Origin: a virus
Reading direction: 5' to 3' (one strand)
Virus record (IMG/VR): IMGVR_UViG_3300008624_000705
Coordinates: 1-29,916 of that record
DNA: 29,916 bases
Shown: positions 6,956 through 27,799 of the stretch, piece by piece
Numbering within the stretch: position 1 is the stretch's first letter
Layout of the letters: the number at the start of each line of letters is the position of its first letter
Made by a program: the position numbers and the translations under genes
The notes under the pieces: model-generated
Seen by the model: only the letters and a program-made list of their open reading frames with translations
Told to the model about the DNA's origin: nothing
The model's database searches: none

Positions 6956-7134
6956 AACAAGAGAAGGGTATTGTTGAAAAGGAAATTGCTCGTCCTGATG
7001 GTGTCATACATAAAACACAAATAGTTACTATTTTGCATGAGACAGCTATGAGTTATGCTGTTGAGTTGGATGGAAAGGTATTTCATAATATACCAAAACA
7101 TTGTGTAAGGAAATTAGATCCAAAAATTACTTGA
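6952..7134 (+). CDS. Small beta-rich protein, tandem paralogue 2
   Basis: A 60-residue protein overlapping the preceding gene by ATGA. It shares that gene's pattern: PDGVIHKTQIVTI, YAVELDGKVFHNI, CVRKL. Function unknown; a small SH3-like nucleic-acid or protein-binding barrel is possible. The -35 box of the next promoter overlaps its last codons (TTGACA at 7131), so the promoter is partly inside this gene. Confidence 0.6.
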   Translation: MKQEKGIVEKEIARPDGVIHKTQIVTILHETAMSYAVELDGKVFHNIPKHCVRKLDPKIT

Positions 7135-7159
7135 CATTTATCTTTTTTATATGTAAGTT
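7131..7159 (+). promoter_or_regulatory. Strong sigma70-like promoter, ATG at predicted start point
   Basis: TTGACA at 7131-7136, 17-base spacer, TAAGTT at 7154-7159. The ATG of the deformylase gene begins 7 bases after the -10 box, where transcription should start, and no Shine-Dalgarno is present. The predicted mRNA is leaderless. Member of a family of seven such promoters in this window. Confidence 0.7.
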
Positions 7160-7165
7160 AATCAT

Positions 7166-7786
7166 ATGAAAGAGATGATTAGATTTTCATATCATCAACA
7201 TGAAATAATAAATTGTTTCAAAGAGAATAATCCAGTTATAAACAAGAAACTGAGGGAGGTATCAGTAGATGAAGGATTACATATCGCAAAAGATTTATTC
7301 AACATACTCACGGAAAGGAAAGATGGCATTGGGTTGGCTGCTAATCAAGTTGGGATCAATGCTAGTGTTGCTGTACTTAATGTCCGCGAGCCAATTATCT
7401 TAATCAATCCTGTTATCGAAGAACAATGGGATGAGATTGATTATTATGAAGGATGTTTAAGTTATCCTGGAAAAGGAATCCACACTAAACGATATAAAAA
7501 CATTATCGTTAAGACGGAACAAGAAGAAAGTGGATGGTATTTTAGTGGAACTGAATCTTCTACAGAAGCTAAGGGGACTTGGGAAAAGGAAGGAAAGAAT
7601 CATGACCAAGAACAAAGGTTATTAGAAGCAATATGTGTTCAACATGAAATTGATCATTTAAATGGAATGACTATCCACGATAGGAAAATCGATACTACTA
7701 TTAGAAACGAAAATAAAATTGGAAGAAATGAACCTTGTCATTGTGGTAGTGGTAAAAAATATAAAAAATGTTGTGAGAGAAAATGA
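7166..7786 (+). CDS. def: Peptide deformylase with C-terminal SEC-C zinc motif
   Basis: Peptide deformylase removes the formyl group from the first methionine of new proteins. All three family motifs are intact: GIGLAANQ (54-61), EGCLS (95-99) and HEIDH (160-164), giving the metal ligands Cys97, His160 and His164. Between motifs II and III there is an unusual Ser/Glu/Lys-rich insert (about 118-150). The C-terminus carries a SEC-C motif, [18 protein letters not shown] (C191, C193, C202, C203), a zinc knuckle known from SecA and other proteins. Marine phages are known to carry short deformylases; a SEC-C fusion is less usual. The ATG at 7166 coincides with the predicted transcription start, so a leaderless message is expected. 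Confidence 0.93.
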
Positions 7787-8022
7787 AAATAGATACAAAT
7801 GATTTATCAGTTATGAAAGGATTTATGTCAAGTTATGGTTGGGTAAAAGGTAAGACAAGAACATCTATAGATTACAAATCAGTACCAGACCATATATGTA
7901 AGGATTTTGATGATGATTGTATTGACATTCCGCGAACATATTGGGAATGTTGGGAATATGATTCAGAGTGTGGCGTATGTCCTTTTCTTATACAAGAAGT
8001 TACAGAAGAAATGAATAAATAA
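7783..8022 (+). CDS. Small cysteine-containing acidic protein, unknown
   Basis: A 79-residue protein, not recognised. It contains five cysteines ([24 protein letters not shown]) that could bind metal, and an aromatic, acidic centre. It overlaps the deformylase stop by ATGA, so it is cotranscribed with it. Confidence 0.55.
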
Positions 8023-8024
8023 TA

Positions 8025-8234
8025 ATGGAAAAAAGTGAATTAAATAAAATAATAAAAGAAGTAAATAAATTAATGAAAAAATACTTAGGTGAAGGTAAAT
8101 TAGAAGATAAAATAGAAAAATTACTTAAAGATGGAATTGTAGAAATTATAGGTTGTGATGATGTTGGTTTTCCTATAGTTAAACCAACCGAAAAGGGTAT
8201 GCAAATATTTAGGGATAATTACATTAGTGTTTGA
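8025..8234 (+). CDS. Small lysine-rich protein, possibly winged-helix-like
   Basis: A 69-residue protein with two Lys/Glu-rich helices followed by KDGIVEIIGCDDVGFPIVKP and TEKGMQIF. This helix-helix-hairpin layout is reminiscent of a winged helix, but the call is tentative. It starts 2 bases after the preceding stop and overlaps the next gene by 8 bases. Confidence 0.5.
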   Translation: MEKSELNKIIKEVNKLMKKYLGEGKLEDKIEKLLKDGIVEIIGCDDVGFPIVKPTEKGMQIFRDNYISV

Positions 8235-8667
8235 TAAAACAATAAAACTTACAGGCGAATATCCTAGTGATTGGAAACCACCAAATACTATTGTTGATAT
8301 ACAAAAAACATTTGCAGCATTTGATTTCTATGATGGTAGAATGATAGGTGGGTCTAAGTGGCAATATTCAGAACTTCATCCGAAGGATTTGGTTGTATAC
8401 AATGCAAATGTATTGATGCCTGATTATGGTAAAGTGTGGTATGGTGATTTAAATCTTACAGAAGATTATTTAACATTGAGAGAAATTGCTCAAATATTAA
8501 ATACAGATTTATATATTTTGTGGGAAAGTGATGGAAGATTTGGTGAAGAAAATAACCCAATAGATGAATTGATGGAGAAGGCTGTTTGGAATACTAAAGA
8601 AGATATGCCAACTTTAGATTGGTTAAGTAAAAAAAGAAAGGCTAAATACGATGAAAGAACCACTTGA
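8227..8667 (+). CDS. Phage protein of unknown function
   Basis: A 146-residue protein starting at a GTG (8227) that overlaps the previous gene. It is rich in aromatic residues and has a mixed alpha/beta look, with no motif I can assign. The stretch LTLREIAQILNTDLYILWE could be a helical DNA-binding or dimer segment. The C-terminus is basic (KKRKAKYDERTT). It overlaps the next gene by 17 bases. Confidence 0.5.
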   Translation: MFDKTIKLTGEYPSDWKPPNTIVDIQKTFAAFDFYDGRMIGGSKWQYSELHPKDLVVYNANVLMPDYGKVWYGDLNLTEDYLTLREIAQILNTDLYILWESDGRFGEENNPIDELMEKAVWNTKEDMPTLDWLSKKRKAKYDERTT

Positions 8668-8926
8668 TTTGAGTAAAAAAAGACCTGGACCGTGGGACAA
8701 TGAAAAATTAAAATTGATTGATGAAAAATCTGGTGAAACATTATTGGAATGTAAAATTGGTGATAAGTATCATCAGTTACTTTTGGAAATTGGATTGAAT
8801 GTGATATTGGAAAGGGCAGTATCTGAGTATGAGAGTGGTGGTGATTTTTTGGAGTATGTAAAGAACAGGCCTATGCAAGAATGGGAATCAAAATTAGATA
8901 AAGAGTGGACACCATTAGATGAGTAA
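8651..8926 (+). CDS. Phage protein of unknown function
   Basis: A 91-residue acidic protein, not recognised. It begins with a basic, Pro-rich segment (DLSKKRPGPWDNEK), continues as likely helices (YHQLLLEIGLNVILERAV), and ends in an acidic Trp-rich tail. It overlaps both neighbours, which supports a real gene. Confidence 0.5.
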   Translation: MKEPLDLSKKRPGPWDNEKLKLIDEKSGETLLECKIGDKYHQLLLEIGLNVILERAVSEYESGGDFLEYVKNRPMQEWESKLDKEWTPLDE

Positions 8927-9434
8927 AGAATATCCAGATATAGTTGATTGGGAAGATTGTATTGAAGAGTGGGATTCTTATTATGAGAAATGGTATGTCA
9001 AGTATATCATTGGACCCATCGGTACTGCGTATAGGTGGTTGAGAGAGTGGCCGTATCGTATCAAATATTATATGCAGCGTGGTCGTAGATGTTGGTCTGA
9101 CCAAGATGCTTGGGCAATAGATTATTGGTTAGTAAGTGGTCTTATTCCAATGGTGGAGCGATTGAAGAAGGAGAAATTGGGAGTACCATCGTCAATGTAT
9201 AAAGATGAAGATAGCGTTAATGCAGTTTCAGTTCCAACTGATTTTGCTGATGTATTGGCAGAGCAACGATGGGATAATATATTGGGCGAAATAATTTATG
9301 GTTTGAAGTGTGCTAAGAAACTTCAAGATCTTGATTTTGATTACGAAGATGAGGAATTGGGAATGAGGTTATCAAAGAGTTCTCAGCGCTCACTTGAATT
9401 GATAGGAGAACATTTATTTGCCTTATGGGATTAA
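8919..9434 (+). CDS. Conserved phage protein with Trp/Tyr-rich N-terminus
   Basis: A 171-residue protein with a Trp/Tyr-rich, partly amphipathic N-terminus (YRWLREWPYRIKYYMQRG). It is followed by CWSDQDAWAIDYWLVSGLIPMVERLK and LGVP. This middle section resembles a widespread phage protein family of unknown function in which a D-x-W/D-x-x-L helix precedes a G-x-P turn. The C-terminal part is acidic and helical. No catalytic motif is seen. It overlaps both neighbours. Confidence 0.55.
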   Translation: MSKEYPDIVDWEDCIEEWDSYYEKWYVKYIIGPIGTAYRWLREWPYRIKYYMQRGRRCWSDQDAWAIDYWLVSGLIPMVERLKKEKLGVPSSMYKDEDSVNAVSVPTDFADVLAEQRWDNILGEIIYGLKCAKKLQDLDFDYEDEELGMRLSKSSQRSLELIGEHLFALWD

Positions 9435-9667
9435 AAAATGAAACAAAAGATATACCTGTATCCAATAAAGATACTGTCAAAGATTTCAACCAGGTGGCCA
9501 CTAAGAAGCCCGATGGTCAAGACAACGTGGTGGAAAAATCTAAATCTAAATCTAAATCCGAAGCTGGAAAAGGTGATAAACTCAGACGAGGAATCTCACA
9601 GAACAAGTGGGGGGAAAAGTGGGAAAAAATTTTTGGAGTCGGAAAACATAGGAAAGAAAAAAAATGA
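9425..9667 (+). CDS. Small disordered basic protein with GDK..IFG tail
   Basis: An 80-residue protein, highly charged and probably disordered, with Lys/Ser repeats (KSKSKSKSEAGKGDK). The C-terminal GDKLRRGISQNKWGEKWEKIFG resembles short phage proteins that pair a GDK-R start with an Y/W-x-x-I-F-G end. This is why I prefer this frame over a competing overlapping frame at 9438-9704. Function unknown. Confidence 0.55.
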   Translation: MGLKNETKDIPVSNKDTVKDFNQVATKKPDGQDNVVEKSKSKSKSEAGKGDKLRRGISQNKWGEKWEKIFGVGKHRKEKK

Positions 9668-9831
9668 AATCGCAATTAAAAGTAATAAAAGAGTTGGTGA
9701 ATAAATATCCTAATGATATGCAATTGGGAGCAGCTGTTAGAAGTTATCTGAATGAAAATTATTGGAGGTTAGAAATGAAGAAAAAAACATCACCTAAAAG
9801 TAAATGGGAAAGAGAGCTTGATAAGATATGA
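9664..9831 (+). CDS. Small basic protein, unknown (55 residues)
   Basis: A 55-codon gene from ATG 9664 to TGA 9831. Its start overlaps the preceding stop and its stop overlaps the next ATG (ATGA at 9828). The product has a helix (QLKVIKELVNKYPND) followed by a basic tail ending in KWERELDKI. An internal ATG at 9775 follows a good GGAGG-type ribosome site, so a shorter product is also possible. Confidence 0.55.
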   Translation: MKSQLKVIKELVNKYPNDMQLGAAVRSYLNENYWRLEMKKKTSPKSKWERELDKI

Positions 9832-10406
9832 AACAATTGATAAAAGATATATTGAAAGATGTGTCTAAAGGTCAACCTAATTTAGAATCTGAAGCTGCTA
9901 GAGAGGTGGTATCTAATTTAATTATGGCTGGTATAAAATCTAAAGGTTGGTATTTGAATTTAAATACAATTAATGGTGATTCCCAAATCGATGTTTGTAG
10001 GCATGGAAATTCATTAAACAGTAATTGTTCTGAATGTGATGAAGAGCAGGCTAGAGAATCTTGGGTATGTGAAATTTGTGGTAAATCTACATATGATGTT
10101 GATTATGATTATGTGGGTAGTGGAACTAACCACTTGGGATGTGAGTTAAAAATAGAAATAGATAATAAAGCCGGCATTAATCCAAATGATGATTCTGATT
10201 ATTATACAGGACCTGATGGTAGTTATGAAGTAGCAAAAGTATTAGGACATATGGATGAAGATGGAGAATTTATCACAGAAAAAGAAACATATTCAGTAGT
10301 TGAAAATTTGGGTTGGGATGCTAAAGATAAGAAACAGAAAAAGATTGGCACGATTACTAAGGATGAATATGATAAATTATATCCTTGGCATGAAGAAGAG
10401 GGGTAA
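9828..10406 (+). CDS. Zinc-ribbon-like phage protein, unknown
   Basis: A 192-residue acidic protein. The middle has a cysteine/histidine cluster: CRHG, NCSEC, VCEICGKS and NHLGC, which can form one or two zinc knuckles. The C-terminal third is acidic and Tyr-rich with several Gly-Trp turns. No catalytic motif is recognised. It may be a nucleic-acid or protein-binding adaptor. It overlaps the previous gene by ATGA, and a one-base gap separates it from the next. Confidence 0.55.
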   Translation: MKQLIKDILKDVSKGQPNLESEAAREVVSNLIMAGIKSKGWYLNLNTINGDSQIDVCRHGNSLNSNCSECDEEQARESWVCEICGKSTYDVDYDYVGSGTNHLGCELKIEIDNKAGINPNDDSDYYTGPDGSYEVAKVLGHMDEDGEFITEKETYSVVENLGWDAKDKKQKKIGTITKDEYDKLYPWHEEEG

Positions 10407-10407
10407 T

Positions 10408-10563
10408 ATGGATTATAAAAAAGAAAGAGATTTGCATTGGTTTAAGAGTGATTTTAGAATTAATTGGTTAAACTTTTTTGCATGGATAGTGTTTGTGCCA
10501 GTATTTGCTTTTTTTAGTTGGTATGGTTTATATAAATTAGTGATGTGGATGATGTATGGCTAG
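10408..10563 (+). CDS. Small single-span membrane protein
   Basis: A 51-residue protein starting at ATG 10408 behind a clear GAGGGG ribosome site. It has a charged N-terminus (MDYKKERDLHWFKSDFR) and one hydrophobic span (LNFFAWIVFVPVFAFFSWYG), ending in short aromatic residues. Function unknown; small membrane peptides like this are common in phage early regions. It overlaps the next gene by 8 bases. Confidence 0.6.
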   Translation: MDYKKERDLHWFKSDFRINWLNFFAWIVFVPVFAFFSWYGLYKLVMWMMYG

Positions 10564-10720
10564 AGATATATTTGGAAATAGAAGAGTAACTAAAGAAGAT
10601 TTGTATACCAAAAAAAGAGTAACTCATGCTGATGTGCGGGGTGAATATGTTAAAATGGTCATATGGATTTTAGCTGGGTATTTGTTTTTTCATTTTATAG
10701 TAATGGGGTGGGAGATATGA
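10556..10720 (+). CDS. Small single-span membrane protein
   Basis: A 54-residue protein starting at ATG 10556, overlapping the previous gene and ending in an ATGA junction at 10717. The N-terminal half is basic and soluble (ARDIFGNRRVTKEDLY). The C-terminal half is a single membrane span (MVIWILAGYLFFHFIVMGW). It forms a pair with the preceding membrane peptide. Function unknown. Confidence 0.6.
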   Translation: MARDIFGNRRVTKEDLYTKKRVTHADVRGEYVKMVIWILAGYLFFHFIVMGWEI

Positions 10721-10962
10721 AACATAAAGATTATATGAAATTAATGAAGACACCATTTGAAGAACTATCGTTAGAAGACCAAAGAAAACGGACTACTGAA
10801 TTTCAAAGACGAATGAAGATAGCAACAAAGTTTATGAGCGGTCTTAGAGATGGTAAGATAGATGAAGAATTTGTAGACTTGATGGAAGATGATGATCCGA
10901 TGAAAGAAACGATAGAAACAATAAAAATAAAAATGAATGATAATTTAGAGGCAGAAGCGTAG
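10717..10962 (+). CDS. Small charged helical protein, unknown
   Basis: An 81-residue protein with strongly charged helices (SLEDQRKRTTEFQRRMKIA) and an acidic C-terminal half. The start is set at ATG 10717 at the ATGA junction, rather than an in-frame ATG at 10663 inside the membrane-peptide gene. Function unknown. Confidence 0.55.
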   Translation: MKHKDYMKLMKTPFEELSLEDQRKRTTEFQRRMKIATKFMSGLRDGKIDEEFVDLMEDDDPMKETIETIKIKMNDNLEAEA

Positions 10963-11207
10963 TGGATAAATTACAAGAATTAATGACAATCACAATGGAA
11001 GAATGTGGTGAGTTGATTCAACAATGTAGTAAAGCTATTCGATGTAGCCATTATTACGGCAACGAAAATTTGGTAGAAGAAGTTGGTGATGTTATGTGTA
11101 TGATTGATATGTTACACGAATACGATATCATCAGTTGGACAGATGTAGATAATAGAGTATTAGAGAAGAAAAAGAAATTAATGAAGTGGAGTAGTTTGCT
11201 TGATTAA
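10962..11207 (+). CDS. MazG-like nucleotide pyrophosphohydrolase
   Basis: An 81-residue all-alpha NTP pyrophosphatase of the MazG/dUTPase superfamily, expected to cleave nucleoside triphosphates to monophosphates with magnesium. The metal motifs are visible: EECGE (ExxE, 14-17) and EEVGD (ExxD, 40-43), separated by a helix as in single-domain MazG-like proteins. It starts at a GTG overlapping the previous stop by one base. Phage MazG proteins have been suggested to act on housekeeping dNTPs or on alarmones; the sequence does not decide. It sits directly before IMP dehydrogenase, which points to nucleotide-pool control. Confidence 0.78.
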   Translation: MDKLQELMTITMEECGELIQQCSKAIRCSHYYGNENLVEEVGDVMCMIDMLHEYDIISWTDVDNRVLEKKKKLMKWSSLLD

Positions 11208-11208
11208 T

Positions 11209-12417
11209 ATGAAAACTTATTTGACATATGATGATGTAAACATAGTTCCAAAATATTCGGAATTGGAATCTCGTGATAAAGTAGATTTAACTACAAGGTT
11301 TACCAAGAATACGGTATTATCTATTCCAATAGTTGCGTCACCGATGGATACCATTTGTGAAGAAGATATGGCAAAGGAAATGATGGATTGGGGTGGAGTT
11401 GGTGTCATACATAGGTTTCAGAGTATTAAGGATCAAGCTCGTATGATGAGATCATTACATTATGAATGGGATAAATACTTTACACCTTTGAGTGGTAATG
11501 ATAACGAAGAAGAAAGAACTATAGATAAAGAATGGGATGAATGGTATAAGAGTGTAAAACATTGGAATCATCCACCTACTAAATCAGATTGGAAAGATTT
11601 AAAGGATAGATTTTATTGGACGGATTCTTTGATTCGTGATGAAAAGATTTGGTCTAAACGACCACTATGTGCAGCCATAGGAGTTACGGGTGATTATAAA
11701 GAGAGAGCTCAGGAGTTAGTTAAGAATGGATGTAATGTATTATTTATAGATATAGCACATGGACACCATTTGTTATTAAAAAATGTTGTTAAGGAGTTAA
11801 AGAATGAATTTGGACGAGATGTTGAAGTCATCGGGGGTTCGATTGCGACACCGGAAGCTGCCAGAGCATTATGTGAATGGGGGGTGGATGGCATTCGAGT
11901 CGGCATCGGTAACGGATCATTATGTGAAACGAGAATCAGAACTGGGGTGGGACTTCCTCAGATTACTGTTTTGTCTGATGTGTGTTCCGTTGCTGACAAT
12001 TATAGTGTTCCTTGCATCGCTGATGGTGGCGTTAGGTATGTGGGTGATGTGGCTAAAGGACTTGGGGCAGGGGCTGATTCGGTTATGCTCGGCTCTATTA
12101 TTGCTGGGACGAAAGAAACGCCAGGCGAAATTATAAAACAAGGAGAATGGCCTAATGAAAAGCTATACAAGAAATATAGAGGAAGTGCTTCTCTCGATAG
12201 TAAAGCTGACAGAGGAGAATCTAAAAATGTGGAAGGAAATTCTAAAATCATTCCATATAAAGGTAAAGTCATCCGCATTATATCTGATATTCGTGATGGT
12301 CTTGGCTCATCTTTTTCTTATGTTGGCGCGAGTGATGTATTGGATTTTCAATCGAGGTGCGAATTTGTTAGGGTTACATCCGCTGGAACGATAGAAGCAA
12401 AACCACATTTACTATGA
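11209..12417 (+). CDS. guaB: IMP dehydrogenase / GMP reductase family enzyme
   Basis: IMP dehydrogenase makes XMP on the guanine nucleotide pathway. This 402-residue version has a TIM barrel with the catalytic cysteine C239 in GNGSLCETR, followed by TGVGLPQ. Other family motifs are DIAHG (181-185), ADGGVRYVGDVAKGLGAGAD and a C-terminal FVRVTSAG typical of IMP dehydrogenase. The two CBS domains of cellular enzymes are absent, and a charged insert of about 55 residues (86-140) takes their place. The flap is altered: the usual YRGMGS reads YRGSAS, and the expected Arg-Tyr dyad reads DRGES. GMP reductase, which lacks CBS domains, therefore remains an alternative. Start chosen at ATG 11209. Confidence 0.85.
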   Translation: MKTYLTYDDVNIVPKYSELESRDKVDLTTRFTKNTVLSIPIVASPMDTICEEDMAKEMMDWGGVGVIHRFQSIKDQARMMRSLHYEWDKYFTPLSGNDNEEERTIDKEWDEWYKSVKHWNHPPTKSDWKDLKDRFYWTDSLIRDEKIWSKRPLCAAIGVTGDYKERAQELVKNGCNVLFIDIAHGHHLLLKNVVKELKNEFGRDVEVIGGSIATPEAARALCEWGVDGIRVGIGNGSLCETRIRTGVGLPQITVLSDVCSVADNYSVPCIADGGVRYVGDVAKGLGAGADSVMLGSIIAGTKETPGEIIKQGEWPNEKLYKKYRGSASLDSKADRGESKNVEGNSKIIPYKGKVIRIISDIRDGLGSSFSYVGASDVLDFQSRCEFVRVTSAGTIEAKPHLL

Positions 12418-12427
12418 AAAAAAAGAC

Positions 12428-12456
12428 TTAACAGGTTATAATTTGATAATTATAGA
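12428..12456 (+). promoter_or_regulatory. Putative promoter with internal inverted repeat
   Basis: TTAACA at 12428-12433, 17-base spacer, TATAGA at 12451-12456. A perfect 7-bp inverted repeat (TATAATT, loop TGAT, AATTATA; 12437-12454) overlaps the spacer and -10 box and could be an operator or a weak hairpin. A GGAG ribosome site lies 8 bases before the next ATG at 12481, so this is not of the leaderless type. Confidence 0.4.
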
Positions 12457-12480
12457 CAGAACATAGTTGGAGATTTTTTT

Positions 12481-12591: not shown

Positions 12592-12595
12592 AATA

Positions 12596-12868: not shown

Positions 12869-12906
12869 GATTTCACATACAAGATACAAGTAAGGAGGAC
12901 AGGTTA

Positions 12907-12945: not shown

Positions 12946-12955
12946 GAGTGACGCG

Positions 12956-13787: not shown

Positions 13788-13809
13788 ACTAAAAAAGTGA
13801 AAATAAAGC

Positions 13810-13839
13810 TTGACTTATATTGCATTTCTTTGTTATATT
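13810..13839 (+). promoter_or_regulatory. Sigma70-like promoter, copy 1 of the repeated promoter element
   Basis: TTGACT (13810-13815), 18-base spacer, TATATT (13834-13839). The surrounding bases from 13791 on match the 75-bp repeats at 27456 and 27725 with a few changes. An ATG begins 6 bases after the -10 box, so the next gene is predicted to be leaderless. Confidence 0.7.
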
Positions 13840-13844
13840 TAGGT

Positions 13845-13946
13845 ATGGAAATGATGGTTACACTAACAATGATATTTTTGTACTTCTATTTTTTTATGGG
13901 GTACGCTGTAATAATTAAAAAAGGAACATATAAGGAAATAAAATGA
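13845..13946 (+). CDS. 33-residue membrane peptide, predicted leaderless
   Basis: ATG 13845 is at the predicted transcription start. The product begins MEMMVTLTMI and has a single membrane span (TLTMIFLYFYFFMGYAVII) and a short basic tail (KKGTYKEIK). The reading frame extends upstream to 13764, but those bases are the promoter and hairpin, so the short form is preferred. The end overlaps the lipoprotein gene by ATGA. Function unknown; it could be a toxin-like or regulatory membrane peptide. Confidence 0.5.
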   Translation: MEMMVTLTMIFLYFYFFMGYAVIIKKGTYKEIK

Positions 13947-15411: not shown

Positions 15412-15441
15412 TTGACTTATATAGTTATATTTAACTATATT
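15412..15441 (+). promoter_or_regulatory. Sigma70-like promoter, ATG at predicted start point
   Basis: TTGACT (15412-15417), 18-base spacer, TATATT (15436-15441). ATG begins 6 bases after the -10 box at 15447 and opens a four-codon mini-cistron. Confidence 0.7.
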
Positions 15442-15446: not shown

Positions 15447-15461
15447 ATGTTAAGGTTGTGA
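15447..15461 (+). other. Leader mini-cistron (MLRL) overlapping the next start
   Basis: ATG TTA AGG TTG TGA at the predicted transcription start. Its TGA overlaps the GTG start of the next gene (GTGA at 15458). The main GTG has no well-spaced ribosome site: AAGG is only 2 bases away, and GAGG would lie at or before the transcript 5' end. Coupling from the mini-cistron could therefore drive it. Confidence 0.4.
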
Positions 15462-16576: not shown

Positions 16577-16605
16577 TTGACATTTTGAATAAAAAGTGTT
16601 AAGTT
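16577..16605 (+). promoter_or_regulatory. Strong promoter for the DruA-like/GHKL operon
   Basis: TTGACA (16577-16582), 17-base spacer, TAAGTT (16600-16605), the same boxes as the deformylase promoter. An ATG starts 6 bases after the -10 box at 16611. It separates the four-gene operon below from the Hc1 gene. Confidence 0.72.
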
Positions 16606-16610: not shown

Positions 16611-16640
16611 ATGGTTATATTTCAAATAAAAAGGTTTTGA
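16611..16640 (+). other. Leader mini-cistron (MVIFQIKRF) coupled to the next gene
   Basis: Nine codons from the ATG at the predicted transcript start, ending in TGATG so that the stop (16638-16640) overlaps the ATG of the DruA-like gene. A usable AAAGG site 5 bases before that ATG lies inside the mini-cistron, so both independent and coupled initiation are possible. Confidence 0.4.
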
Positions 16641-21586: not shown

Positions 21587-21587
21587 A

Positions 21588-21740: not shown

Positions 21741-22336
21741 TGGTATTAGATAGTTTATTAACAGGAGTAATGTTATTCACTTCGTTTGCGGTGAGAACAC
21801 CAAATGTACAACCAAATCCAGATGATTATGAGGTTAGTATTGGGGTGAGTCATCCTGCGTATTACTTTAATCGTCAATGGGAGCGAGAACTTGGTGAACC
21901 TTATATTGATGATTTGGTTTGGTTGAAGTTAGATGCTAATAATCTTTATTTTAAACCAGAGTATATGGATAAACAAAGTCAGAAAATTAAGTATATGAAG
22001 ATGGACTGGCGTAGAACTTGGATTGGTGCTACATGGGGATTTACTACTCGTTCCACTAATGATGCATTGGATGAGTATGAAACATTTGCTTCAGTTGGTA
22101 TAAGTAAGAATAAGAAATATAGTAGTGATGTTATAGAAGTTGAAATATCATTTGATGGGTATCTACCACCTGATGAAAATGGTGAAACATATATTGAGAA
22201 TTTTGAATACGAAGATAAATTCAGAATATCTTGGAAACTTACAGAAAAAGTTAGGCTCTACAATAGTGGTGAAGTTGCCAAGCTTAAAGGTAAAGATTAT
22301 TATAAAGCTAAAATAGGGATAGAAGTATCGTTATGA
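21740..22336 (+). CDS. Beta-rich protein, possibly exported, unknown
   Basis: A 198-residue protein. Residues 6-18 (LLTGVMLFTSFAV) are hydrophobic and could be a weak signal peptide or anchor, but no clear charge precedes them. The rest is beta-rich with repeated aromatic strands (WIGATWGFTTRS, VEVEISFDGYL, YYKAKIGIEVSL) and may form a small barrel or sandwich. I do not recognise a family. ATG overlaps the previous stop; the end overlaps the oxygenase gene by ATGA. Confidence 0.45.
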   Translation: MVLDSLLTGVMLFTSFAVRTPNVQPNPDDYEVSIGVSHPAYYFNRQWERELGEPYIDDLVWLKLDANNLYFKPEYMDKQSQKIKYMKMDWRRTWIGATWGFTTRSTNDALDEYETFASVGISKNKKYSSDVIEVEISFDGYLPPDENGETYIENFEYEDKFRISWKLTEKVRLYNSGEVAKLKGKDYYKAKIGIEVSL

Positions 22337-22983
22337 GTCAACCCGTAAATGTTATGCAATATCCAGATTATTTAAATGAAGGGTTGGGTCTAGTTGAACC
22401 TATAAGATTAAGCAACCCATTAGTTTTTAAATCTCATTATGATGGGGATTTAAAACCTATGATGGATGAAGTTGATATATTATTTAATCAGATTGAATAT
22501 GGGAATATAGGTTTAGAGACTGGCAAAGCTAAAAGTACAGTAGACTTGGATAATCAATTACATATTAATCCAAAATTTGCAGATTATTTTAAATGGAGTC
22601 TACCAAGAATAAAAGATGTTTTATCAATGTGGTCTTATGAAGTTAATGAATCATATGGCGTTGGTTGGGATTTTAAGAAAACTTGGGCTAATGAGCATTT
22701 AAAAGGTGGAGAAACCCTTGAACATCATCATGGGACAACAACTTTAGTTTTAACCATGTACCTAAACAAAGATAATAATTCTGGAGATATATGGTTTATG
22801 GATCCTGAATTTATGATAAGAGCTAATGAGTATAATTCATTAGCTGCAGTAGGATGGAAAGCAATACCATGTAAGATTGGGGATGTCTTTATGTTTCCTG
22901 GTTGGTTATTACATAGGTCGGGAATGAACTTTTCTGATAGTAGGAGAGTGGTTTTAACATCAAACATTGAAATAATAAGGTAA
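22333..22983 (+). CDS. 2-oxoglutarate/Fe(II)-dependent oxygenase
   Basis: A 216-residue double-stranded beta-helix oxygenase. It has the WANEHLKGGETLEHHHG segment with candidate iron ligands H131-H133, SGDIWFMDPE after it, and FPGWLLHRSGMNFSDSRR with the distal H194 and the Arg (R204/R205) that would bind 2-oxoglutarate. This matches phage oxygenases of the TIGR02466 type. The substrate could be a protein or nucleic-acid base; it lies 750 bases after the glycosyltransferase pair but not in a clear hypermodification order. It is coupled to the upstream gene by ATGA. Confidence 0.75.
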   Translation: MSQPVNVMQYPDYLNEGLGLVEPIRLSNPLVFKSHYDGDLKPMMDEVDILFNQIEYGNIGLETGKAKSTVDLDNQLHINPKFADYFKWSLPRIKDVLSMWSYEVNESYGVGWDFKKTWANEHLKGGETLEHHHGTTTLVLTMYLNKDNNSGDIWFMDPEFMIRANEYNSLAAVGWKAIPCKIGDVFMFPGWLLHRSGMNFSDSRRVVLTSNIEIIR

Positions 22984-22987
22984 TAAA

Positions 22988-23731
22988 ATGATAAAAGAAT
23001 TAACAGCAGAACAACTTGAAAATAATTGGGATAAACTTATTGATTTAATCAATACTACATTTGAAGGCGAGAGATTAACAAATATGTTGGAGATGTATGA
23101 TTATTTTGAAGAACGAATGGCTTTAGCACCTGCCAGTGGTAGAGAACATTATCATAGTGCCTATGCTGGTGGTTATGTTGAGCATGTTTTGAATGTTACA
23201 GAATTTGCTATTCAATTGGCTGGGGTATGGAAGACAAATGGTGCTACTATAAATTTTACTCATGAAGAATTGGTGTTTGCTGCTCTACATCATGATTTGG
23301 GTAAGGTTGGTGATTTGGGTGAAGATTATTATATTATAAATGATTCAGATTGGCATCGTAAGAACCAAGGGTTAATCTATAAACATAATCCTAACTTACA
23401 GTATATGACTGTAACTGATAGATCTATTTGGTTATTACAACACTTTAATATCAAAATGACAGATAATGAGTATATTGGGTTAAGATTGACAGATGGGCTT
23501 TATGAAGAAGCTAATAAAAGTTATTATATAGGTTGGACACCAGAGAGATCATTAAGAACCAATATAGCTTATATATTACATCAGGCTGATAGTATGGCGA
23601 CTCATATTGAATTTGATATGTGGAAAAGGGGTGATTGGAATACACCACCACAAAAACCAAAAGTAAAAGAGGAAGTTACAGAGAAGTCTAAGAAGGCTAA
23701 CGAATTATTTAAAGAATTATTTGATGATTGA
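22988..23731 (+). CDS. HD-domain phosphohydrolase
   Basis: A 247-residue metal-dependent phosphohydrolase. The HD motif is ALHHDLGKVGDLG (H101, H102, D103), preceded by GGYVEHVLNV with H66. The layout resembles YhaM-type 3'-5' exonuclease HD domains and HD proteins of T4-type marine phages. A C-terminal Lys/Glu-rich tail follows. The substrate (nucleotide or nucleic acid) cannot be told. It begins 4 bases after the oxygenase stop, and its end overlaps the J-domain gene by 8 bases. Confidence 0.75.
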   Translation: MIKELTAEQLENNWDKLIDLINTTFEGERLTNMLEMYDYFEERMALAPASGREHYHSAYAGGYVEHVLNVTEFAIQLAGVWKTNGATINFTHEELVFAALHHDLGKVGDLGEDYYIINDSDWHRKNQGLIYKHNPNLQYMTVTDRSIWLLQHFNIKMTDNEYIGLRLTDGLYEEANKSYYIGWTPERSLRTNIAYILHQADSMATHIEFDMWKRGDWNTPPQKPKVKEEVTEKSKKANELFKELFDD

Positions 23732-24245
23732 TAAGGATTTAGAGAAAAAAAAATTAAATGCTGAATACAAATATTTAAAGGCAGAGTTGGAATATCAACA
23801 ATCAATTTTTGATTCAGCACGAGGTAATTTTGATGATTACTTTAGAGATAAGTTAGATGCGGTGATGACAGGACAGGCTGCAGAAAAAGCTAAATCTGAA
23901 AAACCTAAATTGGAGAGGAAAGAAGAGGTTGATGTCATATATAAAAAGTTAGCACAAAAAGTTCATCCTGATAAAAAGACTGGGAACCATAAAGATTTCC
24001 AAAAATTAAAGGATAATGTTGATAGCTATGATTTGGATGGTTTAATTGATATGGCTCAGAAATATGATATTGATATTGAAGAAGAGATAGATGAAATATC
24101 TTATTTATCTGTACAGATTCAAATGATAAAAGAACAACTTGATACTATGATGAAATCTCTTGTGTTACAATGGCATAATACTTCTGAAGAAAAGAAACCA
24201 CAACTTGAACAGATGATAATGTTTCAGTTTGGAAAAAAAGTTTAA
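23724..24245 (+). CDS. J-domain (DnaJ-like) protein with coiled coils
   Basis: A 173-residue protein. The hallmark HPD tripeptide (81-83) lies in YKKLAQKVHPDKKTG, after an N-terminal Lys/Glu-rich coiled coil (1-65), and a second long helix follows. J-domains recruit and stimulate DnaK (Hsp70). The usual zinc and C-terminal DnaJ domains are missing, and no DnaK lies in this window, so host DnaK is the likely partner. Phages are known to use host chaperones for replication or assembly. Start at ATG 23724, rather than the TTG at 23721. Confidence 0.75.
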   Translation: MIDKDLEKKKLNAEYKYLKAELEYQQSIFDSARGNFDDYFRDKLDAVMTGQAAEKAKSEKPKLERKEEVDVIYKKLAQKVHPDKKTGNHKDFQKLKDNVDSYDLDGLIDMAQKYDIDIEEEIDEISYLSVQIQMIKEQLDTMMKSLVLQWHNTSEEKKPQLEQMIMFQFGKKV

Positions 24246-24254
24246 TTGTTTTGT

Positions 24255-24273
24255 ATTTTCCGTGGTGGAAAAT
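24255..24273 (+). other. Short hairpin after the J-domain gene
   Basis: ATTTTCC (24255-24261) and GGAAAAT (24267-24273) pair perfectly across the loop GTGGT. No T-run follows, so it is not a classical terminator; it may be a 3' stabiliser or weak terminator. AT-rich sequence follows up to ATG 24311, without a clear -35 box. Confidence 0.4.
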
Positions 24274-24310
24274 ATGATGGTATATGTAATATATTATATT
24301 TATTATTGAT

Positions 24311-24562
24311 ATGAACGGACAAGATAAGAAAGATTTAAATGTGATATTAGAAAGAATGGACCAAGCCGATAAGGATAGAGATAAGATTCATCAAGACATT
24401 AAGTTCATTAAAGAGAATTTATTCAATCCACACAAAGGATTATGGACAGAGACTAAAATGAATTCCCAATTTAGAGAGAATACCGGTAAGTGGAGAAATG
24501 TATTAGGTGCTGGATTTTTTGCTTTATTGATTGATAGGGTATGGAGTTATATTGGTTCTTAA
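24311..24562 (+). CDS. Small coiled-coil protein with C-terminal membrane segment
   Basis: An 83-residue protein. The first 60 residues are charged and coiled-coil-like (ILERMDQADKDRDKIHQDI, FIKENLF). The last 20 are hydrophobic (NVLGAGFFALLIDRVWSYIGS) and may be a tail anchor. The layout is reminiscent of XhlA-type holin helpers and other small phage membrane proteins, but no lysis gene is nearby, so the role is unknown. No ribosome site of good strength is seen before the ATG. Confidence 0.5.
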   Translation: MNGQDKKDLNVILERMDQADKDRDKIHQDIKFIKENLFNPHKGLWTETKMNSQFRENTGKWRNVLGAGFFALLIDRVWSYIGS

Positions 24563-24598
24563 TAAAAGTTTTATTTAAAATAAGTAAAGGGTTATATT

Positions 24599-24880
24599 GT
24601 GGCATTTTTTAATAAGAAAAAGAAAAAATCAATTTTACGGGGTGATAGAAGAAATCCTTGTAAAATATACATAAATCAATATACTGATCTTGGGTTGGTG
24701 AGAAGAGAAACATTCGGTTTTGTGCAAGAAAGAAACAATAAGGCTCAAATGTATTATGTTATGACTGGCAACGATGGTGATAAGCTGTGGTATCCATATA
24801 GTGATATAGAATTAATTAAAGGTCATTGGACAAATAAAAAAAGAAAAACTGAAGAGGATGATGTGGATGAACAAAAATAA
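24599..24880 (+). CDS. Small basic beta-rich protein, unknown
   Basis: A 93-residue protein starting at GTG 24599, with AAAGG 8 bases upstream. It has a basic N-terminus (FFNKKKKKSILRGDRRNP), a middle of alternating strands (CKIYINQYTDLG, TFGFVQERN, YYVMTGNDGDKLWYPYSDIE) resembling a small SH3-like barrel, and a charged tail. Function unknown. It may be distantly related to the two tandem paralogues at 6779 and 6952, but similarity is weak. Confidence 0.5.
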   Translation: MAFFNKKKKKSILRGDRRNPCKIYINQYTDLGLVRRETFGFVQERNNKAQMYYVMTGNDGDKLWYPYSDIELIKGHWTNKKRKTEEDDVDEQK

Positions 24881-25229
24881 TATAGTTGATGTTTTAACTT
24901 TTTTTTATTTATTGTTAGCTCTGATAATTCTTTTGGTTTTGGCTCATGGATGTGTTAGTAATTTGACATATAAAGGTGATACTGTAAGTGGTGTAGTTCG
25001 TGTTCCCACAAAGGTAACGAGTTTTCCTTTAAAAGATCATAAAGGTGAGTTACATAAATACAAAGATAACATTGATAGTTTTATATTTCCACGAGATAGT
25101 AAGAAACTTACTCAATATTGTGCATTTCATTTTGAGTGGGAAGATATTAGAGCGGTTTATAAAAAGGATAAGTACGGTGAATGGGGTTATTCGTATATAG
25201 TAAAGAAAAATAAAAAAAGTTGGAAGTGA
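24867..25229 (+). CDS. Membrane-anchored protein or lipoprotein, unknown
   Basis: A 120-residue protein with an N-terminal hydrophobic stretch (VLTFFYLLLALIILLVLAHG) directly followed by Cys. The LAHGC context is not a good lipobox, so an uncleaved membrane anchor is as likely as a lipoprotein. The soluble part is beta-rich and basic (SGVVRVPTKVTSFPL, ending in KKNKKSWK). Start ATG 24867 has GAAGAGG about 9 bases upstream and overlaps the previous gene; ATGs at 24858 and 24861 are alternatives. Confidence 0.5.
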   Translation: MNKNNIVDVLTFFYLLLALIILLVLAHGCVSNLTYKGDTVSGVVRVPTKVTSFPLKDHKGELHKYKDNIDSFIFPRDSKKLTQYCAFHFEWEDIRAVYKKDKYGEWGYSYIVKKNKKSWK

Positions 25230-25242
25230 TTTCAAAAAGATC

Positions 25243-25272
25243 TTGACTTGTATGGTGTTTTGTTGTTAAGTT
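25243..25272 (+). promoter_or_regulatory. Sigma70-like promoter for the phosphatase gene
   Basis: TTGACT (25243-25248), 18-base spacer, TAAGTT (25267-25272). An ATG begins 8 bases after the -10 box at 25280 and reads only ATG AGT TAA, two bases before the ATG of the phosphatase gene (25291). Confidence 0.65.
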
Positions 25273-25290
25273 TATGAAAATGAGTTAATA

Positions 25291-25746
25291 ATGAAAAATA
25301 CAGTTATATTCGATTTGGATGGTACACTTGCCATCATAGATAAAAGACGTGAGTTGTCTCGTAAATTTAATGGTAAGATTGATTTTAAGATATTACACGA
25401 TCCGTCTAACATACATTTGGATGAACCAAATGAGCCTGTGATTAAAATGGCACAGATGTTTGCGGAAGATGGTTTTAATATCTTTATATTTTCAGGTCGT
25501 TCAGATAAAACTATGTTTACTACTAAGTCTTGGTTAACTCATAATAAAGTACCATTTCATAAGTTGGTGATGAGACCACATAAAACAATGAACTTTATTC
25601 CTGATGAAATATTGAAAAGAGATATGTTGGATACTCATGCAGATATTGATGATGTATTTTTAGTGGTAGATGATAGACAGAAAGTGGTTGATATGTGGAG
25701 AAATCTGGGACTTACGGTATTTCAGGTAGCTCCGGGAGACTTTTAA
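25291..25746 (+). CDS. HAD-family phosphatase, PNKP/PseT phosphatase-like
   Basis: A 151-residue HAD phosphatase. Motifs: DLDGT (D8, D10), IFSGRSD (S68) and VVDDRQKVVDMWRNLGL (D127, D128), with K109 as the possible motif III lysine. The overall order resembles the 3'-phosphatase domain of phage T4 polynucleotide kinase PseT. The kinase domain is absent, so it may repair 3' ends of nicked DNA or RNA, for example cut tRNA, alone or with another gene. A tRNA gene follows at once. No strong ribosome site precedes the ATG. Confidence 0.75.
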   Translation: MKNTVIFDLDGTLAIIDKRRELSRKFNGKIDFKILHDPSNIHLDEPNEPVIKMAQMFAEDGFNIFIFSGRSDKTMFTTKSWLTHNKVPFHKLVMRPHKTMNFIPDEILKRDMLDTHADIDDVFLVVDDRQKVVDMWRNLGLTVFQVAPGDF

Positions 25747-25750
25747 ATAT

Positions 25751-25821
25751 GCGGGTGTTGTATAATGGTATTACCCCAGCCTTCCAAGCTGGTGATGTCG
25801 GTCCGATTCCGACCATCCGCT
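25751..25821 (+). tRNA. tRNA-Gly, anticodon TCC
   Basis: A 71-base cloverleaf. The acceptor stem GCGGGTG (25751-25757) pairs with CATCCGC, with one G-T wobble. The anticodon arm is CCAGC, loop CTTCCAA, GCTGG, giving anticodon TCC that reads GGA. The T arm GTCGG, TCCGATTC, CCGAC is intact. The discriminator is T and no CCA is encoded. The base content is much richer in GC than around it. Confidence 0.93.
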
Positions 25822-25849
25822 CAAAAATATATTTGTATTTAGGATTTTT

Positions 25850-26332
25850 ATGGATGTTTTAGTTCCTGATAGAGAATCTATATTGTTACGATTGGGTAGA
25901 TTGCGTGATTTGTGTGTAGAAACAGAGAGGGATAATCCTACAGATTCTCATTTATTTAGTAATCAATATGTAAATGTTGAGGAGATGATAGATGAAGTAA
26001 GAGAGATACATACTGGTAGGAAAGCTCTGGATGTGGATAGCGAAAGAAAATTGATGATTGATATTATGAAAAGGGCAAATAAAATATGGAAGATTAGAAA
26101 TAAAGTTAAAAATGGTGAAATTAAAGATTTAGATTTATTAGAGGTACATGAAACAGTAGAAGAGTTTTTATCTGAACCAGATGTTCAAAAAATAAATGCC
26201 ATTAAATATTATAGAGAAGTGATGACAACACATTTTGATGAAAAGGTTGGGTTGAAAGAAGCAAAAGATTATGTAGATGCTGTTCATAATGATATGAAGA
26301 ATAGGCGGATTGCTAATGAGCCTAGGCTGTAA
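25850..26332 (+). CDS. Helical protein with ribosomal L7/L12-like C-terminal segment
   Basis: A 160-residue protein. Residues about 114-145 contain INAIKYYREVM, then VGLKEAKDYVDAV, closely resembling the L7/L12 C-terminal domain pattern (xIKxVRxxxGLxLKEAKxLV). The rest is acidic and helical with no clear match (RLGRLRDLCVETERDN and a Lys/Arg-rich middle). In L7/L12 that surface contacts translation factors, so a role touching the ribosome is possible but unproven; the motif may simply be a common helix pair. ATG 25850 has AGGA 5-6 bases upstream. Confidence 0.55.
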   Translation: MDVLVPDRESILLRLGRLRDLCVETERDNPTDSHLFSNQYVNVEEMIDEVREIHTGRKALDVDSERKLMIDIMKRANKIWKIRNKVKNGEIKDLDLLEVHETVEEFLSEPDVQKINAIKYYREVMTTHFDEKVGLKEAKDYVDAVHNDMKNRRIANEPRL

Positions 26333-26542
26333 GTGGTACACAACAAAGAGTTAGCCAAGTATTTACGGAAACGGATGGAAACACAAGACCAAGTAAATAC
26401 TATATTTCATTTGATTAAAGTTCCAACCGAATCTGAGTTGGAGTTTTGGATACAACAATTTAAGACAAAAGATTGTTGCGGACATTCAGAATGGTCGGAA
26501 ACATTTCAGAGAAATATTTGGATTAAAGATGAAGAAGATTAA
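26333..26542 (+). CDS. Small protein, unknown
   Basis: A 69-residue protein from GTG 26333, immediately after the previous stop. It has a basic helix (NKELAKYLRKRMETQDQVN) and a C-terminal DCCGHSEWSETF segment with two Cys and a His. No family is recognised. It overlaps the next gene by 14 bases. Confidence 0.5.
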   Translation: MVHNKELAKYLRKRMETQDQVNTIFHLIKVPTESELEFWIQQFKTKDCCGHSEWSETFQRNIWIKDEED

Positions 26543-26711
26543 ATGGACATGGGAAGAGATTTATAAGTTGGGTAGAAACTCATATGATGCTGGTGTACGA
26601 ATGGAATGTGAGAGATTAGCAGTTAAGATAGTAAAAGGTATACCATTAATAGAGAATGACATTAGATATTTAAATAGAATAAATGATAATATTCTATCCA
26701 AAACTACCTAA
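26529..26711 (+). CDS. Small protein, unknown
   Basis: A 60-residue protein, basic and helical (WEEIYKLGRNSYDAGVRMEC). Both ends overlap neighbouring genes, the next by 29 bases. Function unknown. Confidence 0.5.
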   Translation: MKKIKWTWEEIYKLGRNSYDAGVRMECERLAVKIVKGIPLIENDIRYLNRINDNILSKTT

Positions 26712-26907
26712 TGGAAATATACTGTGGAGTTGTGATAACTGCGATAACACAGCGGAAGTATCAGCGCCGGATACCAACGCTGTAGCATTAATATGTATGT
26801 GTGATGGTAAGGTTCATCCAGAATGTAACAACGATTGGTATTATAAAGGATTGTATTGGAATAGAATTCCAATGGAAAATAGAGAAAGATATAGAAAGGA
26901 TAGGTAA
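26683..26907 (+). CDS. Small zinc-finger-like protein
   Basis: A 74-residue protein. CDNCDNTAEV followed by ICMCDGKVHPEC gives a C-x2-C ... C-x-C-x4-H-x2-C cluster that could hold one or two zinc ions. The C-terminus is basic (MENRERYRKDR). The ATG at 26683 overlaps the previous gene by 29 bases; an ATG at 26711 would start directly before the cysteines and is an alternative. No family is recognised. Confidence 0.5.
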   Translation: MIIFYPKLPNGNILWSCDNCDNTAEVSAPDTNAVALICMCDGKVHPECNNDWYYKGLYWNRIPMENRERYRKDR

Positions 26908-26910
26908 CAT

Positions 26911-27177
26911 ATGAAGATGGATAGAGCATACTTTAAGGAGAAGCATACAGGGAAGAAAGCGGGGGCACAGATGACAAAGTGTTGTAATCAGTCTCGTGAT
27001 AGGGATATTTTAAATAAGAAGAATCCAGAAGATTGGGAATTGATGGAAGCGTATTGTGAGAAGAGTCTATCACAATCTTCAGGAACAGAATCTATTGAAA
27101 TTGTGTGTTGTAAGAAATGTGGTAGGTTAATGAAGTATGTAAGTATCTTAAGATCGGAATATAGAGCATATGAATAA
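26911..27177 (+). CDS. Small zinc-ribbon-like protein
   Basis: An 88-residue protein. MTKCCNQS and EIVCCKKCGRLM make a plausible four-Cys ribbon, with a charged helical linker between. The N-terminus is basic (KEKHTGKKAG). It overlaps the next gene by 8 bases. Function unknown. Confidence 0.55.
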   Translation: MKMDRAYFKEKHTGKKAGAQMTKCCNQSRDRDILNKKNPEDWELMEAYCEKSLSQSSGTESIEIVCCKKCGRLMKYVSILRSEYRAYE

Positions 27178-27466
27178 ATATTTAAAAAAATTAAGACATT
27201 TACAACACACTATGATTCATTGGGCGGAGGAAAATAAGATTCGTAAGAATAAAGGGAAATTCCAAATACCAAATCGTAAAGATGATATGGAATGGAAAGA
27301 TGATTTTAAATATGTTAATAAGTTAGAGATGGATTTAAATGATGATATGCCACACCCATCAAGATTAAATAATGATGAAATGAAAATGTGTAATGAGTTG
27401 TATAGGTTTTATAGTCAAGTATATATACCAAAACGAACATTTATTAAAGATATGTTAAAAAAGTGA
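27170..27466 (+). CDS. Small basic helical protein, unknown
   Basis: A 98-residue protein, Lys/Asn-rich and helical (YLKKLRHLQHTMIHWAEENK), with an acidic middle. Its last residues and stop (KK, TGA at 27464-27466) lie inside the first 75-bp repeat. The same KK-stop ends the next gene inside the second repeat copy, so the repeat supplies the 3' end of both genes. Confidence 0.5.
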   Translation: MNKYLKKLRHLQHTMIHWAEENKIRKNKGKFQIPNRKDDMEWKDDFKYVNKLEMDLNDDMPHPSRLNNDEMKMCNELYRFYSQVYIPKRTFIKDMLKK

Positions 27467-27530
27467 AAATAAAGCTTGACTCGTATTGCATTTCTTTTGT
27501 ATCTTCATATATGAAAAAAAGAGGAAAAAC
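27456..27530 (+). repeat. 75-bp direct repeat with promoter, copy 2
   Basis: Identical over 75 bases to 27725-27799. It holds the end of the preceding gene, a promoter, and a start codon reading MKKRGKT. The core from about 27461 to 27513 also matches 13795-13847 with several differences. The two perfect copies are 269 bases apart and flank one small gene. Confidence 0.95.
27476..27505 (+). promoter_or_regulatory. Promoter inside 75-bp repeat, copy 2
   Basis: TTGACT (27476-27481), 18-base spacer, TATCTT (27500-27505). ATG 27511 starts 6 bases after the -10 box. Drives the small gene at 27511. Confidence 0.72.
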
Positions 27531-27735
27531 GATGGAAAGGCAAATGGATATATTTGATTTACCCTCTGAATGGCACGATGTGTTTAACTCAACTCCCACT
27601 CCTTATCCTTATAAATATGCAAATAACATATCTTTAGATGCTTATGTAAGAATGATAACCTGTGGTAAGGGATATCCAAATGGTAAAATACCATCAGAAG
27701 TAGTTGAAAGATATAATAAATGCATAAAAAAGTGA
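27511..27735 (+). CDS. Small protein bracketed by promoter repeats, unknown
   Basis: A 74-residue protein from ATG 27511 at the predicted transcript start. Its first residues MKKRGKT are encoded by the repeat. An ATG at 27532 lies behind a GAGGA site (27521-27525) and gives a 67-residue form (MERQMDIFDLPSEWHDVF). The product has an acidic start, a Pro/Tyr-rich middle (NSTPTPYPYKY), then SLDAYVRMITCGKGYPNGK. No family is recognised. Because the repeats flank it, the gene could be lost or gained by homologous recombination. Confidence 0.5.
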   Translation: MKKRGKTMERQMDIFDLPSEWHDVFNSTPTPYPYKYANNISLDAYVRMITCGKGYPNGKIPSEVVERYNKCIKK

Positions 27736-27799
27736 AAATAAAGCTTGACTCGTATTGCATTTCTTTTGTATCTTCATATATGAAAAAAAGAGGAAAAAC
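27725..27799 (+). repeat. 75-bp direct repeat with promoter, copy 3
   Basis: Identical over 75 bases to 27456-27530. It supplies the last codons of the preceding small gene and the promoter of the HExxH/VWA gene. Confidence 0.95.
27745..27774 (+). promoter_or_regulatory. Promoter inside 75-bp repeat, copy 3
   Basis: TTGACT (27745-27750), 18-base spacer, TATCTT (27769-27774). ATG 27780 starts 6 bases after the -10 box and opens a nine-codon mini-cistron. Confidence 0.72.

Follow-up and report, generated by a model that had tools for sequence, protein, structure and literature searches.

ATG codons at the predicted start points of a sigma-70-type promoter class in uncultured T4-like phages: candidate leaderless genes and upstream AUGs

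Seven promoters in the window

The stretch of DNA analysed here is IMG/VR virus record IMGVR_UViG_3300008624_000705, positions 1 to 29,916 (29.9 kb, 32% GC; below, the window), a fragment of a T4-like phage. It carries promoters of the pattern cTTGACW-N17/18-TAnnTT at which an ATG lies just behind the -10 box, where transcription would be expected to start. An original prediction, made from the letters of this stretch, listed seven of them, and all seven are present on the + strand; the pattern has no match on the - strand, and its reverse, which serves as the control pattern, has none at all. The gap, the number of bases that separate the -10 hexamer from the ATG, is 6 for the ATG at 7166, 7 for that at 25280 and 5 for those at 13845, 15447, 16611, 27511 and 27780, which equals the predicted distances (6/6/6/6/6/7/8) once the A of ATG is counted. 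The promoters and the frames opened by these ATGs are as follows.

7131..7159, + strand: sigma-70-type promoter of the peptide deformylase gene, TTGACA-N17-TAAGTT
7166..7786, + strand: peptide deformylase (PHROG 2890, E 6.7e-27), ATG at gap 6; start at 7166 or, in frame, at 7175
13810..13839, + strand: promoter TTGACT-N18-TATATT, a divergent copy of the promoter repeat at 27.5 kb
13845..13946, + strand: 33-codon hydrophobic open reading frame (ORF; small membrane ORF) from the gap-5 ATG, overlapping the gene at 13943
15412..15441, + strand: promoter TTGACT-N18-TATATT
15447..15461, + strand: 4-codon mini-ORF from the gap-5 ATG; its stop overlaps the GTG at 15458 (GUGA)
16577..16605, + strand: promoter TTGACA-N17-TAAGTT
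16611..16640, + strand: mini-ORF of 9 codons opened by the gap-5 ATG; its stop overlaps the Shine-Dalgarno-led start at 16640 (UGAUG)
25243..25272, + strand: promoter of the PNK-like phosphatase gene, TTGACT-N18-TAAGTT
25280..25288, + strand: 2-codon mini-ORF at gap 7; ends 2 nt before the ATG at 25291
27476..27505, + strand: promoter TTGACT-N18-TATCTT, a repeat copy
27511..27735, + strand: ORF from the gap-5 ATG; in frame with the Shine-Dalgarno-led ATG at 27532
27745..27774, + strand: promoter of the VWA-protein gene, TTGACT-N18-TATCTT, a repeat copy
27780..27809, + strand: mini-ORF of 9 codons opened by the gap-5 ATG; its stop overlaps the Shine-Dalgarno-led start at 27806 (AUGA)

A second ATG is present at gap 1 behind the 25243 promoter. 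With an ATG rate of 0.0335 in the window, the chance of meeting one over three positions is 0.097, and the chance of all five independent cases is about 9e-6, or about 8e-8 for all seven; for the window itself these values are post hoc. The mini-frames of 2-9 codons described at 15447, 16611, 25280 and 27780 have the lengths and stops attributed to them. The ATGs at 7166, 13845 and 27511, which had been taken as the starts of their genes, do lie at gap 5-6, and the in-frame positions 7175 and 13854 are possible alternatives for the first two. For the third, 27532 is more likely to be the start than 27511, judging by its Shine-Dalgarno AGAGG at a spacing of 7 nt; no homologue or orthologue of this gene was found in the other loci of the sequence set described below.

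Three of the promoters lie in a repeated 90-nt cassette (27456-27545, 27725-27814 and 13790-13879; 93% and 67% identity) that comprises an A-rich upstream element, the promoter, the start-point ATG and a Shine-Dalgarno. Another copy of its promoter core lies beyond the range of the window, at 38568-38598 of the related contig G001. Because the cassette is repeated in the window and its core recurs in G001, the 90-nt repeats suggest mobile promoter cassettes.

Position of the ATG across relatives

The window was combined with loci from other IMG/VR contigs into a set of 256 sequences (1.94 Mb, overlaps included). Pattern matches less than 40 bases from the upstream end of a sequence or less than 150 from its downstream end were dropped, which leaves 131 distinct promoter sites, or 119 once clustered. 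The relative G001 (131 kb) has proteins identical to those of the window in 3/3 comparisons and encodes a T4-type major capsid protein, whose best matches (~50%) are in Microcystis phage Mel-JY01, an uncultured 484-kb phage and Flavobacterium immuto phages. A further relative, G002, is 73% identical in the VWA protein. G001 and G002 each hold 15 promoters of the class, all on one strand, with one control match each.

ATGs are concentrated at one position behind these promoters. At the 131 sites, 34 fall at gap 5 and 10 at gap 6, where about 3.6 per position would be expected; all other gaps up to 25 have between 0 and 9, and a second peak follows at gaps 26 (21) and 27 (10), made up mostly of Shine-Dalgarno-led starts. 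An ATG at gap 5-6 is thus found at 44 of the 131 sites, about a third. The original prediction had proposed searching relatives for the pattern and scoring the distance to the next ATG; after the window and near-identical contigs are excluded, 28 of 106 clusters have an ATG at gap 5-6 against 5.8 expected (p = 2e-12), and the observation is correct and more general than the window alone. The bases after the -10 box run roughly A, A, R, R, T, A, T, R and then become A-rich, with G enriched at positions 15-17. From this profile and the ATG peaks, the typical site combines a TATR start region with a Shine-Dalgarno some 10 nt later and, about 21 nt past the start point, an ATG.

Orthologues of the window genes give a second view of the same signal. 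We examined 98 distinct regions upstream of such orthologues in other contigs and scored only the 22 with a promoter match. The ATG is at gap 5-6 in 13 of them (1.2 expected) and at gap 5-8 in 16 (2.3 expected). For the deformylase it is at gap 5-6 in 3/3, and for the PNK-like phosphatase in 5/5, as the gene start in three; counted over gap 5-8, it is present in 5/5 for PNK, in 4/4 for VWA and in 1/1 for the gene at 13943.

Genes that appear to begin at the start-point ATG

At 17 of the 44 sites with an ATG at gap 5-6, this ATG opens a frame of at least 28 codons and no Shine-Dalgarno-led start follows at gap 17-49; with a wider start range, such a start is called in 3 of the 17 (window 13810, L240:7999 and L251:5580). 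The start finder used here and in the frame tests below can take an internal in-frame ATG as the main start when the first ATG is the true one. For a subset of genes, comparison with orthologues indicates that the start-point ATG is the true start codon: peptide deformylase, PNK-like phosphatase, UvsE, endonuclease V, DNA polymerase, the VWA protein and one unnamed gene (EYVD). The N-termini of the EYVD, deformylase, PNK and VWA proteins match those of their orthologues. The protein that begins at a gap-7 ATG in G002 aligns with T4 endonuclease V from residue 1 to residue 1, and its start can hardly lie elsewhere, because the catalytic group of the T4 enzyme is the amino group of Thr2 once Met has been removed. 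UvsE has an identical start at gap 6 in three contigs.

Several of these genes differ between phages in how they would be started. The DNA polymerase of contig G010 reads MYQNI from a gap-5 ATG; its orthologues in G001 and G002 have the same N-terminus and the same promoter class, with the ATG at gap 32 and no Shine-Dalgarno called. In three contigs (G023, G024 and the one with locus L114) a gap-5 ATG is the start of the PNK-like phosphatase; in G002 and G019 this gene has a Shine-Dalgarno-led start. For the VWA protein, the G032 copy is leaderless, and those of the window and G002 are Shine-Dalgarno-led and preceded by an AUGA mini-ORF, which in G002 has 8 codons and begins at gap 8.

Two genes of the window call for more care. 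Peptide deformylase orthologues start at gap 5-6 in G002, G018 and G021 (MKKVINC/MNKVINC), and the window gene is a probable leaderless or near-leaderless one. It is, however, 10 residues longer, and since orthologues of its type begin near M-I/T/R-R-F-S, 7175, three codons (9 nt) on, is an alternative start. The small membrane ORF at 13845 has a homologue in G002/G025 (58% identity over 24 residues) that is a second cistron there and starts at the equivalent of 13854, so the start in the window may be at 13854, 9 nt in frame past the start-point ATG.

These two cases also fit another explanation, in which transcription starts 1-3 bases later, at a purine at gap 7-8. The gap-5 AUG would then lie outside the mRNA, and the genes would depend on internal starts in the same frame or on read-through transcripts. 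Start points of sigma-70 promoters usually lie about 7 bases past the -10 box, and purines are common at gap 7 (A 0.38, G 0.34); the relatives, as described, point to 7175 and 13854, each 9 nt past the start-point ATG. Against this, for the gap-5 DNA polymerase and PNK genes and the G002 deformylase no other start agrees with the orthologues, and by eye no Shine-Dalgarno precedes them at the usual spacing. We consider a later start point very improbable.

AUG or initiator

The triplets at gap 5 are ATG 34 times, ATA 22 times, ATC four times and ATT twice, and A-T is therefore favoured there regardless of the next base. It is possible, then, that the ATG is mostly a by-product of a favoured TATR start region in an AT-rich genome, and that ribosomes ignore it unless it is a gene start. 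The frequency of ATA agrees with this, as does the fact that many relatives have TAGGTATAA or ATAGTATAA. At 23 of the 44 sites the gene also has a Shine-Dalgarno start of its own, and stop/start overlaps, treated below, are not above control.

The base that follows A-T speaks on the other side. G follows AT at gap 5 in 28/55 clusters, compared with 46/207 at gaps 9-22 (p = 7e-5), and the excess is also seen among Shine-Dalgarno-led clusters (16/35, p = 0.006). GTG does not occur at gap 5, where GTA occurs eight times, and TTG occurs once against the 34 ATGs. Frames opened by the start-point ATG also often stay open through to the gene. The start-point codon may be AUG-specific, and the gap-5 signal is both an AUG preference and an initiator preference; a mere by-product is an unlikely account, if one worth keeping in mind.

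Upstream AUGs and mini-cistrons

The 23 sites just mentioned, a few of which are close copies, have the gap-5/6 ATG ahead of a Shine-Dalgarno-led start; those in the window are 16640, 27532 and 27806. The remaining 4 of the 44 sites have short frames and no Shine-Dalgarno start at gap 17-49. We compared the frames opened by such upstream AUGs, using cluster representatives, with virtual frames placed at sites that lack the ATG. The frame is open and in frame to the gene in 16/26, against 6/47 controls (p = 3e-5), or 11/141 when three virtual frames are taken per control site. A stricter count, which uses a narrower start range, leaves the direction of the result unchanged (10/17 against 6/44, p = 7e-4). 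The frame ends before the gene in 4/26 against 27/47 controls, and runs past the gene start out of frame in 1/26 against 8/47 (p = 0.14).

In the original prediction the start-point AUG was a means of loading ribosomes, and the coupled mini-cistrons had a stop that overlaps or nearly touches the start of the gene. Such arrangements do recur. At the 16640 locus the overlap or abutment is found with altered length elsewhere (UGAUG in the window, UAGUG in G002/G025, UAGUG from gap 12 in G026 and UAG-AUG in G030; neither in G022, G032 and G033), and at 27806 an AUGA is shared by the window and G002. In E. coli, the 5'-terminal upstream AUG (5'-uAUG) of ptrB can influence how ribosomes bind at the gene behind it, as reported in PMC4965119. 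As a general rule, however, the coupling is rejected: a frame that ends at the gene start, by overlap or abutment, is no commoner than in controls (5/26 against 6/47, p = 0.5; 20/141 with three virtual frames per site). The in-frame extension is enriched; the overlapping mini-cistron is not. Ribosome loading fares better in part, in that the AUG is enriched and is the true start of several genes, but it is not universal: 87 of the 131 promoters have no ATG at gap 5-6, and some relatives lack it at the same gene. A general loading device working through coupled mini-cistrons therefore seems to us improbable.

Proposed reading

Our preferred reading, to which we give a probability of roughly 0.64, is a single sigma-70-type promoter class with an initiator, whose start-point AUG makes a subset of genes leaderless and at most other sites carrying it is an upstream AUG. 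The class would belong to an uncultured T4-like phage clade and would probably act early. It would extend beyond the -10 box into an initiator-like stretch (~A-A-R-R-T-A-T-R) containing the transcription start, with host-type RNA polymerase starting at or beside the A of TATR. In the subset, the start-point ATG would be the gene's own start and the mRNA leaderless or with a leader of about 0-2 nt; where the ATG at the start point is the gene's start, ribosomes must use leaderless initiation. At most other sites translation of the gene would begin at a Shine-Dalgarno start, as a rule about 21 nt downstream, leaving the start-point ATG as a 5'-terminal upstream AUG that is perhaps read at a low level. 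The interpretation given in the original prediction is partly supported. Of the preferred reading, the sequences show the promoters, the enrichment of the ATG by position, the N-termini of several genes and the bias in frame; the transcription start, the timing and the translation from upstream AUGs are its inferred parts.

Some results weigh against this reading or reduce the force of the tests behind it. Relatives that keep the -35 and -10 boxes and lose the ATG, an outcome held in advance to count against a role for the AUG, occur at two genes: behind the 16577 promoter (gene 16640) the ATG is at gap 5-8 in 2/6 and absent in 4/6, and behind the 15412 promoter (gene 15458) it is present in 1/3, by either gap range, and absent in 2/3. 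Most promoter copies keep it (the 16/22 at gap 5-8 given above); the start-point ATG is present at most genes and clearly not needed at two. A pooled Fisher test of AUG against GUG/UUG gives p = 0.018 for all sites and 0.08 for cluster representatives. Related promoter copies reduce independence in the A-T-G and frame tests, and together with A-rich leaders they weaken the in-frame result, for which the product under a composition-shuffle null is 0.0066 across the 11 in-frame cases and about 0.017 for the ten open ones. UvsE aligns to solved structures only from residue 48, so that its N-terminus rests on the agreement of three phages. A possible replicate, 100 sites failing the strict pattern in which gap 5-6 has 12 ATGs against about 1.25 for each position from gap 7 to gap 22, was set aside and is not counted, because only 4 of the 12 lie in a promoter-like (A-rich) context and others are homologous coding sequence, at least 4 of them a single stretch.

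A more speculative extension of the preferred reading is that a promoter cassette containing its own start-point AUG serves the whole clade, and that small changes within the 20-30 nt behind the start point can flip a gene between leaderless and leadered (mostly Shine-Dalgarno-led) expression; where both starts are present, the in-frame AUG would give two starts for one protein. We offer this tentatively.

If the preferred reading holds, the clade would provide a large natural set in which one promoter class serves a leaderless gene in one phage and its leadered orthologue in another, and how genes pass between the two modes of translation initiation could be put to a direct test. Some gene starts may also be corrected, since callers relying on a ribosome-binding site could misplace them.

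Promoter type and host

The promoters resemble the host sigma-70 type and for this reason are probably early, which does not favour the suggestion that a start-point AUG suits infection at a stage when ribosomes are altered. In named phage records, with control matches in brackets, there are 0 (1) promoters in Mel-JY01, 0 (0) in Flavobacterium immuto_3-5A, 1 (1) in Rhodothermus phage RM378, 3 (4) in the uncultured phage LR756508 and 2 (0) in Pelagibacter phage HTVC008M. Thirteen stretches of metagenome-assembled genome contigs with a relative of the capsid gene bear mixed labels, and the promoter class is absent from all 13; a search of bacterial genomes with IMP dehydrogenase found no relative. 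The Bacteroidota-type promoter has TAnnTTTG; in the present sites A or T mostly occupies the two positions behind TAnnTT, and this type is therefore not favoured.

The 81-kb contig G010 has 23 promoters of the class, 11 forward and 12 reverse, and most of them stand in two opposed arrays at C1:55800-76200 (L231, L232), many with similar cores. G001 (C1:34979-35009, 44953-44983 and 45072-45101) and G002 (C1:32857-32887 and 42758-42787) also have promoters of this class that no clear ORF follows closely. By eye, the sequence downstream of them is partly similar between the two contigs, and they could possibly drive small RNA genes.

Comparison with known systems

Leaderless genes and 5'-terminal upstream AUGs are already known, and what we describe is a large new example rather than a new mechanism; a feature of added interest, as judged from the sequences, is that orthologous genes appear to differ in initiation mode under one promoter class. 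Lambda cI is a phage gene that starts at the 5' AUG of its mRNA. The candidate leaderless genes resemble it in beginning at a 5' AUG and differ in number, cI being a single gene and the present set comprising at least seven gene families. The leaderless cI mRNA was used as a control in the E. coli study of 5'-uAUGs (PMC4965119). In that study, 70S ribosomes can bind to such AUGs, translation from them reaches 0.09-99.7% of the level of the downstream gene in 13 cases, and their effects on downstream expression vary. The phage sites are like these mRNAs in having an AUG at or within 3 nt of the predicted 5' end, ahead of a Shine-Dalgarno-led gene (23/44 sites), and in their short upstream ORFs; E. 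coli rhaB has an 8-codon ATGA overlap (PMC4965119). They are unlike the E. coli cases, which were chosen to be out of frame, in belonging to a phage and to one promoter class, in being more often in frame, and in being known from sequence alone.

Bacterial surveys define leaderless genes by the same distance from the -10 element to the start codon (PMC3160421, PMC12340547). A -10 element 5-7 nt before an ATG is what is seen at the 44 of 131 sites with gap 5-6; that ATG is the apparent real start for a subset only, and not at the 23 Shine-Dalgarno-led sites. As in the TA-led leaderless genes of those surveys, the -10 box lies about 12 nt before the start codon and there is no Shine-Dalgarno; the differences are the strict TTGACW -35 box and the orthologues that are leadered from the same promoter class (PMC3160421, PMC12340547). 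Among phages, phiYS40 of Thermus is described in a review as having leaderless mRNAs, with IF2 up and IF3 down (PMC3594737). Both phages would have a set of leaderless genes, and the present promoters, in contrast to those of phiYS40, look host-type and probably early, a comparison that on our side draws on sequence (PMC3594737). A search of the literature on leaderless mRNA and phage, with subscription journals mostly outside its reach, returned no paper on this clade among the matches listed.

Other features of the window

The window peptide deformylase (7166-7786) has, by eye, a cysteine-rich tail that is missing from three aligned relatives. A tRNA-Gly (TCC) gene at 25751-25822 adjoins the PNK-like phosphatase gene on its 3' side. 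At 1143-5634 there is a block of aminotransferase-, NeuB-, acetyltransferase-, cytidylyltransferase- and glycosyltransferase-like genes, named by eye from their translations, as would be expected for the making of a nonulosonic-acid-type sugar.

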